Source: Persephonella marina EX-H1 (GTDB taxonomy: Bacteria; Aquificota; Aquificia; Aquificales; Hydrogenothermaceae). Taken from it: a stretch of DNA of 47,962 nt. The first letter of the stretch is position 1, and the number at the start of each line of letters is the position of its first letter. The notes beneath the pieces were generated by a model. That model was not told where the DNA came from. It worked only from the letters and a program-made list of their open reading frames with translations, and ran no database searches. The DNA is taken from positions 1,810,411-1,858,372 of the forward strand of contig NC_012440.1 in assembly GCF_000021565.1 (NCBI RefSeq), written 5' to 3'. Both the position numbers and the translations under genes were made by a program. Below, piece by piece: positions 42,065 to 47,962 of this stretch.

Positions 42065-43605
<1,541 letters not shown>

Positions 43606-44868: not shown

Positions 44869-44897
44869 AATATATCAACCAAGTATCATAATGTCAA
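44869..44897 (-). promoter_or_regulatory. Promoter of tRNA-Asn, overlapping the valS stop codon
   Basis: TTGACA (44897-44892), 17-base spacer, TATATT (44874-44869). The TGA in the -35 hexamer is the valS stop codon (44896-44894), the same arrangement as at ppa/tRNA-Pro. Confidence 0.78.
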
Positions 44898-47800
44898 GAT
44901 GCTTCTGTCACTTCTTTTAGATTCTCTATTATCTGTTTTACCTTTTCAGCTTTCTGTTTCAGTTCTTCATATAGCTTTCTTTCTTTTTCAACAACATGAG
45001 CTGGAGCTTTTTTAACAAAGTTCTCATTTGAAAGCTTCTTCTCTGATATAGATATAGACCTTTCAAGATCTTTCAATATTTTTTCCTGTCTTTCTATCTC
45101 TTTATCAATGTCTATAGTTCCAGATATATCTATATAGCTTTCTGCCCTCTTAGACACTGCAACAATCGTGTTTGGTGGTCTTTCCAGTGTCTGTGATACA
45201 GTAAGTTCATCTATTTTTGCAAGTAGTTTAATAGAAGGTTCTAATGCATGTATAAGGCTTTCAAACTCAAAATCCCCTGGTTTTATATAAACGTTAAGCT
45301 TTCTTGAAGGCTCTATTCCAAAATCAGCTCTAACATTTCTTATGGAAACTATCAGCTCTTTCAGATCCTCAATTAATCTTTTCTCATTCTCAAAATATAG
45401 ATCCTCTGAGTACTCAGGATATTTTGCAACAGGTAAGAACTTACTGTCCTTATATGGAAGTTTCTGCCATATCTCTTCCGTTAAAAACGGCATTACTGGA
45501 TGAAGCATTCTGAGTGTTTTATCCAGAACATAAACAAGAACTGAGAGAGCCGTTTTCTTCTCCTGATCTGTTCCTTTGTATATTCTTTCCTTTGTAAACT
45601 CTAAATACCAGTCACAGTACTCATGCCAGAAGAAGTCATAAAGTATGTTTGCATAATCATTATACCTGTAATCCTCAAGGGCTTTTGTTGCTTTATCTAT
45701 AGTTTCCTGAAGAAGCGTAAGAATCCATCTATCTTCATATGATAATGAAAGTGTCTTCACCTCATTTATTATATTGCTGTTTACCATGTACTTCTCAAGA
45801 TTTGTTAAAACAAATTTTGATGCGTTCCATATCTTATTTGCAAAATGTTTGTATCCCTCTATTCTTTTTTCAGAAAGTCTTATATCCCTTCCCTGTGCGG
45901 CTAATGCTGCCAGTGTAAATCTGAGGGAGTCTGCTCCGTACTTTTCTATCATATCAAGGGGATCTATAACATTCCCTTTTGTTTTTGACATCTTCTCCCC
46001 TTTTTCATCCCTTACAAGAGCGTGTATATAAACATCACTGAAAGGTTTTTCCTTCATAAAATGCATACCCATCATTATCATACGGGCCACCCAGAAGAAT
46101 ATAATGTCAAATCCTGTTATAAGAAGAGATGTTGGATAAAAAGATTTCAGATCCTTAAGATCCTCAGGCCATCCAAGTGTTCCAAAAGGCCATAAAGCTG
46201 ATGAAAACCATGTATCTAAAACATCATCTTCCTGCTTAAGGTTATGACTTCCACATTTTTCACATCTAAGCTCAATATAATACTCATTTTCCCTGATAAT
46301 ATCCTCAATGATATTAAATGTGTTATTTGTCTCTGTAAAGAATATCCTTCCCTGTTTGCAGTTACCATAAGCATGATCTATCAGCCATTGATTCAGTTTT
46401 TCCTCATCTAAAAGTATCTCTTCCCTTTTTAAACCGTCTAAAACAATATTAAAAACATACTTTATCTCTTCTTTATGCCTTTTATAAGCATCTACAACAT
46501 CCTTTGCTGTAAATGTTTTGTCTATATAACCATTCTCATGCATATAAAAGATAGCATGTGGAACAAAACCTATAATATTGTCTTTTCTTTCCCTTAAAAG
46601 TATTGATTCATCAAGTATAGGAACTTTTTTATAATGTTCATCTAAGAATTTCTTTAATTTCTGTTTATCTGAAAGCTCTGGTATCTCTTTACCGAAAACC
46701 ACCTTCTCATAGAACTGAAGGTTTGTTTTATCAGGATGATTAAAATTCTTTCCATAAAGATAGTCTGTCAGATCCTTAATGGAAAATACCTGAGGTATTC
46801 TCGTGTCACCGAATACATTGAATATAACTTTTTCTGGAAGCGTATTATACATCTGATCACTGAAAACATTTATATGCTCACAGCTCTTACACTGCCATAC
46901 AGGTATTCTGTGTCCCCACCAGATCTGTCTTGAAATACACCAGTCCCTTATATCGTACATCCAGTTAAGGTAAGTCTTTTTCCAGTTCTCAGGTATATAT
47001 CTGATATCTCCCTTTTCAACTACATCTATAGCTTCCTTTGCGAGTTTTTTCGTGTTAACAAACCACTGAACTGAAAGGTAAGGCTCTACAACAGCTCCTG
47101 ATCTCTGCGAATGACCTACATTGTGAACAATCTCCTCAACTTTCTCTAAAAGACCTGACTCTTTCAGATCCTCTACAATCCTTTTTCTTGCCTCATATCT
47201 ATCAAGACCTTTATACTTTCCTGCGTTTTCGTTCATAACAGCTGACTCATCCATAACTATAACCATCGGAAGACCATGTCTCTGTCCAACCTCAAAGTCG
47301 TTAGGATCGTGGGCAGGTGTTATCTTAACAGCACCTGTTCCAAACTCAGGATCTACATAATCATCAGCTATAACTGGTATAAGGTTTGAAACTTCTTTCT
47401 CTCCATCCCATGTGGTTCTTTTTTCCGGGGCGAGAGGCAGTCTAACTCTCTTACCTATGAGATCTTTATATCTTTCATCTTCAGGATTTACAGCAACAGC
47501 TGTATCACCAAGCATAGTCTCAGGTCTTGTTGTTGCAACAGTTATAAACTCTCCTGTCTCATTTCCTTCCTGATCAACAACAGGATATCTTATATACCAG
47601 AGATTTCCTCTTTCCTCTTTGTACTCAACCTCAAGATCTGATATGGCTGTTCTGTCTTTAGGATCCCAGTTAACTATGTATGGAGCTTTAAAAATAAGTC
47701 CTTCCCTATAAAGTCTGAAAAAAGCTTCTCTTACAGCTCTCGCAAAGCCTTCATCAAGTGTAAACCTCTGTCTTGTCCAGTCACAGGAAGCTCCAAGGCT

Positions 47801-47962
47801 CTCTATCTGCTTCTTTATAGTATCCCTGGCCTTTGGAACCCATTCCCACACCTTTTCAATAAACTTTTCTCTTCCTAAATCAAACTTGTTTATTCCCTCT
47901 GCCTCAAGCTGTCTTGTTACAACCCACTGTGTTGCTATACCTGCGTGATCAAAACCTGGAAG
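44894..47962 (-). CDS. valS: Valyl-tRNA synthetase (5' end outside window), with large insertion
   Basis: The frame is open to the window edge, reading LPGFDHAGIATQWVVTRQLE just downstream of where HIGH should lie, so the first codons are missing. Seen are the CP1 editing domain (TTRPETMLGDTAVAVNP, AHDPNDFEVGQRHGLP), WWGHRIPVW, DVLDTWFSSALWPFGTLGWPED, the KMSKS motif (KMSKTKGNVIDP), the anticodon domain and a C-terminal coiled-coil arm. Between the two cysteine pairs (CKSC near 46890 and CEKC near 46260) about 200 residues occur where relatives have 20-40. The insert is Lys/Glu/Ile-rich and matches no domain I know. All catalytic motifs are intact, so the enzyme is presumably active. Confidence 0.95.
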   Translation of the reverse strand, partial: LPGFDHAGIATQWVVTRQLEAEGINKFDLGREKFIEKVWEWVPKARDTIKKQIESLGASCDWTRQRFTLDEGFARAVREAFFRLYREGLIFKAPYIVNWDPKDRTAISDLEVEYKEERGNLWYIRYPVVDQEGNETGEFITVATTRPETMLGDTAVAVNPEDERYKDLIGKRVRLPLAPEKRTTWDGEKEVSNLIPVIADDYVDPEFGTGAVKITPAHDPNDFEVGQRHGLPMVIVMDESAVMNENAGKYKGLDRYEARKRIVEDLKESGLLEKVEEIVHNVGHSQRSGAVVEPYLSVQWFVNTKKLAKEAIDVVEKGDIRYIPENWKKTYLNWMYDIRDWCISRQIWWGHRIPVWQCKSCEHINVFSDQMYNTLPEKVIFNVFGDTRIPQVFSIKDLTDYLYGKNFNHPDKTNLQFYEKVVFGKEIPELSDKQKLKKFLDEHYKKVPILDESILLRERKDNIIGFVPHAIFYMHENGYIDKTFTAKDVVDAYKRHKEEIKYVFNIVLDGLKREEILLDEEKLNQWLIDHAYGNCKQGRIFFTETNNTFNIIEDIIRENEYYIELRCEKCGSHNLKQEDDVLDTWFSSALWPFGTLGWPEDLKDLKSFYPTSLLITGFDIIFFWVARMIMMGMHFMKEKPFSDVYIHALVRDEKGEKMSKTKGNVIDPLDMIEKYGADSLRFTLAALAAQGRDIRLSEKRIEGYKHFANKIWNASKFVLTNLEKYMVNSNIINEVKTLSLSYEDRWILTLLQETIDKATKALEDYRYNDYANILYDFFWHEYCDWYLEFTKERIYKGTDQEKKTALSVLVYVLDKTLRMLHPVMPFLTEEIWQKLPYKDSKFLPVAKYPEYSEDLYFENEKRLIEDLKELIVSIRNVRADFGIEPSRKLNVYIKPGDFEFESLIHALEPSIKLLAKIDELTVSQTLERPPNTIVAVSKRAESYIDISGTIDIDKEIERQEKILKDLERSISISEKKLSNENFVKKAPAHVVEKERKLYEELKQKAEKVKQIIENLKEVTEAS

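Follow-up and report, generated by a model that had tools for sequence, protein, structure and literature searches.

What is the segment of 205 residues that separates the two cysteine pairs of the zinc ribbon in the valyl-tRNA synthetase (ValRS) encoded in this window (the whole stretch of 47,962 nucleotides that was analysed), where sister orders have 12 residues, and what could it do for the enzyme? We refer below to the family of the window's genome as f1, to two other families of the order Aquificales as f2 and f3, and to the sister orders as f4 and f5.

The insertion site in valyl-tRNA synthetase

The gene was identified by its match to NCBIfam NF004349 (valine--tRNA ligase; 1200.8 bits against a cut-off of 704). 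It extends 228 nt past the end of the window, and the full gene (L009:2305-5601, P0002) encodes 1098 aa. The window also holds one of the genome's two 16S rRNA genes (42065-43605, minus strand). The features of the insertion site are:

44894..47962, minus strand: valS, valyl-tRNA synthetase, with its 5' end cut by the window (NCBIfam match)
46880..46891, minus strand: first zinc-ribbon pair, CKSC (C434, C437), invariant
46265..46879, minus strand: 205 aa separating the two CxxC pairs, where sister orders have 12
46253..46264, minus strand: second zinc-ribbon pair, CEKC (C643, C646), invariant

The sequence has the two CxxC pairs between RIPVW and DVLDTWFSS that mark a class Ia zinc ribbon, and all four cysteines are unchanged in 48 of 48 aligned ValRS. 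RIPVW and DVLDTWF are 223 residues apart, and the distance from WGHR to DTWFSS is 240 residues versus 47 in f4 and f5, which have a compact ribbon at the same site (e.g., CRDCGHVTVSEETPKVCEKC). The net insert is thus 193 aa long and sits at the predicted tip of the ribbon, a position that the alignment places after the exit of the editing domain and ahead of the Rossmann fold's second half. An earlier note on this DNA had described a large, slightly more AT-rich insertion at 46271-46873 with both cysteine pairs kept; its coordinates were correct to within two codons, and the composition agrees, as the GC content is 30.6% in the insert but 41.0% and 34.9% in the portions of valS on either side. 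This value is lower than that of all 615-nt stretches sampled at 100-nt steps in the window, the lowest of which has 30.9%. Because a homologous full-length insert occurs in about 30 other genomes, chance, frameshift and misassembly can be excluded as its source.

The remainder of the enzyme appears ordinary, since 856 of the 862 residues of Thermus thermophilus ValRS (1gax) align with the full-length model (Z 38.4, rmsd 5.9, 45% identity). The two proteins share the whole fold and the CxxC..CxxC zinc ribbon, but only 17 residues lie between the CxxC pairs of 1gax, whereas the ValRS of the window has 205, with two extra units. A large in-frame insertion within a conserved protein might suggest a selfish element, such as an intein or its relic, or a variant of the CP1 editing domain; however, both identities are so improbable as to be negligible. 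No Pfam intein or Hint family matched, structural searches gave no intein-like match, and the distribution is vertical across a whole clade rather than patchy, in agreement with the earlier note, which had seen no intein ends in the sequence. The CP1 structures 1wka and 1wk9 match residues 196-353, whereas the insert occupies residues 438-642, downstream of and outside CP1. Nor is the segment a common feature of bacterial ValRS, a possibility that the earlier note had weighed alongside a known CP1 variant: the site is compact in f4, in f5 and in the T. thermophilus enzyme.

Predicted fold and nested anatomy

An AlphaFold2 model of the insert, calculated from an alignment of 44 homologues, had a pLDDT of 95.4 and a pTM of 0.91, consistent with a folded module; the full-length ValRS model reached 88.5 and 0.82. 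The predicted structure of the insert is mainly helical with short hairpins, so that the alpha/beta character proposed earlier holds in part. Searches with the insert in Pfam, PDB sequences and Foldseek gave no significant named family (no Foldseek E-value below 0.84), and a Pfam match to FPL (E 0.088) was set aside as chance. Weak matches to EF-hand proteins (calmodulin, myosin light chain) were also rejected, given 10-12% identity, an rmsd over 13, no calcium-ligand pattern, and better alignments with winged helices. Three elements were delimited within the insert:

46613..46876, minus strand: unit 1, predicted winged-helix-like, comprising helices plus the opening strand of the hairpin, aa 439-526, present in families f1, f2 and f3
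46298..46588, minus strand: unit 2, predicted winged helix, aa 535-631, from the duplication test, fold matches and alignment
46277..46291, minus strand: final strand within the insert, aa 634-638, taken to close the hairpin of unit 1, from the secondary structure of the model and a pairing deduced from the short forms

A consensus repeat runs through the insert as IFNxYxDxxIxQxFSxxEVxxYL and VFYLYxNGYIGxxFTAxDVxxAY. The local profile score between units 1 and 2 was 32.4, compared with a mean of 11.0 (sd 2.3, maximum 19.9) in 200 column shuffles and 9.8 in a reversed-profile control, and the units are 25% identical. These sequence comparisons show that the two units arose by internal duplication.

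Unit 2 is predicted to be a winged helix. DSSP of the model gives the order H1-S1-H2-H3-S2-wing-S3 (in insert numbering, helix 111-121, bridge 128-129, helices 131-153 and 165-177, and strands 187-190 and 193-196), with an additional short helix at 159-163. Its best structural alignments are nearly all with unrelated winged helices, including those of Egalitarian, a yeast Pol III subunit, the cullin WHB domain, YceH, RuvB, MukE, SelB and MarR, over 60-78 residues at an rmsd of about 3 and with Z scores of 4-6, that is, under 8 and below the level that proves a fold. Unit 1 is predicted to be winged-helix-like from the duplication and the model.

The arrangement of the units would be one of successive nesting. 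In short forms of the insert, a strand-turn-strand comes immediately after the unit 1 helices and ahead of CEKC, whereas in long forms unit 2 is placed between those two strands. Because unit 2 splits the strand-turn-strand seen in the short forms, the anatomy is predicted to be a zinc ribbon containing unit 1, which in turn contains unit 2 in its wing, each within the hairpin of the preceding element; insert strands 90-94 and 203-207 would then be paired.

Distribution and history of the insert

Full-length homologues of the insert (34-62% identity) were found in most f1 genera and in f3. A shorter homologue, which spans the first 60-100 residues of the insert, was found in f2 and in three genera of f1 (g6, g8 and g10), among them Sulfurihydrogenibium. 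The short form of f2, Sulfurihydrogenibium and allies lies at the same site and has a homologous unit 1 without unit 2, which is thus missing from f2 and part of f1; the spacing from RIPVW to DVLDTWF is 116-131 residues in short forms versus 217-225 in long forms. Unit 1 was present in every Aquificales ValRS that could be read at this site, and none of the ten Aquificales genomes without an insert match shows a ValRS read across the site lacking the insert, their valS being fragmentary at contig ends or unassembled. No insert match was obtained in f4, f5 or the remaining phylum. A scan of 84,980 species with two short patterns, which distant forms would escape, returned Aquificota only, plus one MAG titled Gammaproteobacteria whose ValRS resembles that of f3. 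No second copy was detected outside ValRS in 16 genomes. As far as these searches reached, the insert therefore appears confined to the order Aquificales, in keeping with the lineage specificity suggested earlier. In several f2 genera (L050, L051, L053, L055), which also have the short zinc-ribbon insert, a different ValRS insert, about 140-165 aa long, follows the editing domain and precedes the DWCISRQ motif.

A tree calculated from the ValRS core, with the insert left out, placed f3 beside f2 and the long-form members of f1 beside the short-form ones; a grouping of all long forms together was rejected (p-AU 4.7e-61). An ancestral long form with two losses and two separate gains both require three changes. 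Unit 2 of f3 and that of the window's ValRS occupy the same site and share 31-41% identity, more than the 25% between units 1 and 2, and a single origin of unit 2 followed by two losses is for this reason favoured by the sequences, though not proven.

Split branched-chain synthetases in family f3

In all seven f3 MAGs, the ValRS open reading frame (L057-L061, L040, L038) ends with a stop codon 19-31 residues past DVLDTWF, at a point that corresponds in the window to:

46136..46165, minus strand: stretch aligned with the f3 valS cut point, between GWPE and FYPT, about aa 676-685, where the f3 alpha part ends and the beta part starts

A terminator-like hairpin follows the alpha frame in two cases (L057, L040). 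The missing half with KMSKS was found as a separate gene on another contig, beginning at the homologous residue, in five of the seven MAGs (L064-L068), and was not found in the incomplete assemblies G046 and G048. Four of the five beta copies are complete open frames of 417-463 aa with their own start codon. Enolase neighbours two of the beta loci (L065, L066), and L065 and L068 have another neighbour in common. The alpha part comprises HIGH, the editing domain, the zinc ribbon and the module, and the beta part KMSKS, the anticodon domain and the arm. A frameshift or assembly error was rejected as the cause, given that seven MAGs from several projects have ends within the same 12 residues, that the two parts occupy separate contigs and that four betas have their own start codon. 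A split of ValRS at the gene level is strongly supported in f3.

Two further synthetases are divided in this family, giving gene counts of two for ValRS, two for IleRS and three for LeuRS. IleRS, a single open frame of 954 aa in the window's genome, is cut in f3 between the equivalents of residues 426 and about 428, ahead of RPDWCISRQ, into open frames of 464-500 aa (alpha, L158-L162) and 523-546 aa (beta, L151-L156). Branched-chain synthetases encoded by two genes are familiar from the alpha/beta LeuRS of the Aquifex type. LeuRS is also split in two in the window's genome (open frames of 615 and 294 aa), whereas f3 has it in three pieces, of which two correspond to the window genome's LeuRS alpha (residues 11-376 and 380-611) and the third to beta; their open frames measure about 365-382, 219-285 and 299-363 aa (L174-L185; L077-L082, L085). 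The LeuRS alpha and beta genes of the window's genome are separated by an open frame of 394 aa with an ATPase-like product (L186:2877-4059). A general habit of cutting genes in f3 was rejected, as RpoB (1523-1599 aa) and SMC (1167-1182 aa) are uninterrupted wherever the contigs are long enough, and MetRS is whole at 643-666 aa. The literature searched, with most subscription papers outside it, contained no description of ValRS or IleRS as a split enzyme and nothing relevant on a split LeuRS, which is weak evidence of novelty.

Possible roles of the module

Winged helices elsewhere bind nucleic acid or protein. The earlier note had suggested a module for RNA binding or oligomerisation, and the insert may serve either. 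The reading that we prefer, at a probability of roughly 0.4, is that the insert is a non-catalytic contact module. Units 1 and 2 together would contact mainly protein, have no catalytic part and brace the connective and zinc-ribbon region against the rest of ValRS; this bracing may help to keep both halves of the catalytic fold joined, and in f3, where the break in the chain follows shortly after the module, the halves would be held by contacts alone. The sequences offer support for such a brace in the presence of unit 1 at every readable Aquificales site, the restriction of the insert to ValRS, and the position of the f3 cut 19-31 residues behind DVLDTWF. Against it, the compact ValRS of the sister orders works without the insert, and f2 as well as some f1 genera lack unit 2.

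Of 44 homologues of the insert, 40 have a net acidic charge, which fits contact with protein better than contact with RNA and mildly disfavours a classical RNA-binding surface. Charge is a weak argument, since the entire ValRS is also acidic, but it is the reason for which we rank a protein brace slightly above the next candidate, a tRNA arm in which the winged helices would extend out of the zinc ribbon as far as the acceptor stem or 3' end of tRNA-Val, where they would aid recognition or transfer between the synthetic and editing sites. Such an arm is a tentative possibility, consistent with the placement of the insert, which follows the CP1 exit and precedes the second half of the catalytic fold, and with the RNA-binding proteins Egalitarian and SelB among the structural matches of unit 2. 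Winged helices are present in other tRNA-binding enzymes and serve RNA in both PheRS and SelB. The alpha subunit of archaeal and eukaryotic PheRS has winged-helix DBD-1 and DBD-3, and these enzymes bind tRNA in a mode unlike that of bacterial PheRS (PMC3275996). The likeness lies in winged-helix-type accessory domains within an aminoacyl-tRNA synthetase, but PheRS is a class II enzyme with these domains at its N-terminus, whereas those of the class I ValRS described here are predicted to be nested in the zinc ribbon. In addition to the prevailing acidity, no conserved basic patch was seen in the third helices or wings, and the sister orders manage without the insert.

That the insert is a neutral or almost neutral expansion of a loop that tolerates additions, retained since it is folded and harmless, is unlikely, but the faster divergence of the insert leaves some room for it: within long-form f1, identity to the window's protein is 52-65% in unit 1 and 44-66% in unit 2, compared with 80-90% in the N-terminal core. 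The two branches without unit 2 would be compatible with such an expansion, as would the additional ValRS insert of some f2 genera, which suggests that inserts are tolerated. However, unit 1 is kept in three families with invariant residues (F26, N27, F38, L47, F52 and F62 in insert numbering) despite overall identities of 29-63%. Returning to the brace, a more speculative and improbable extension is that the module acted as a clamp between subunits and thereby allowed ValRS to be cut, the nested winged helices having braced the catalytic halves before f3 came to have a two-subunit ValRS.

The ValRS of the Aquificales is a universal enzyme that appears to have been enlarged stepwise, each small domain being inserted into the one before, and because forms with no insert, one unit and two units are all extant in related families, the steps can be reconstructed and tested. 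In the bacterial family f3, ValRS, IleRS and LeuRS all appear to be built from separate pieces; such enzymes would offer natural material for testing how divided class I synthetases come together and whether extra domains help them to do so.
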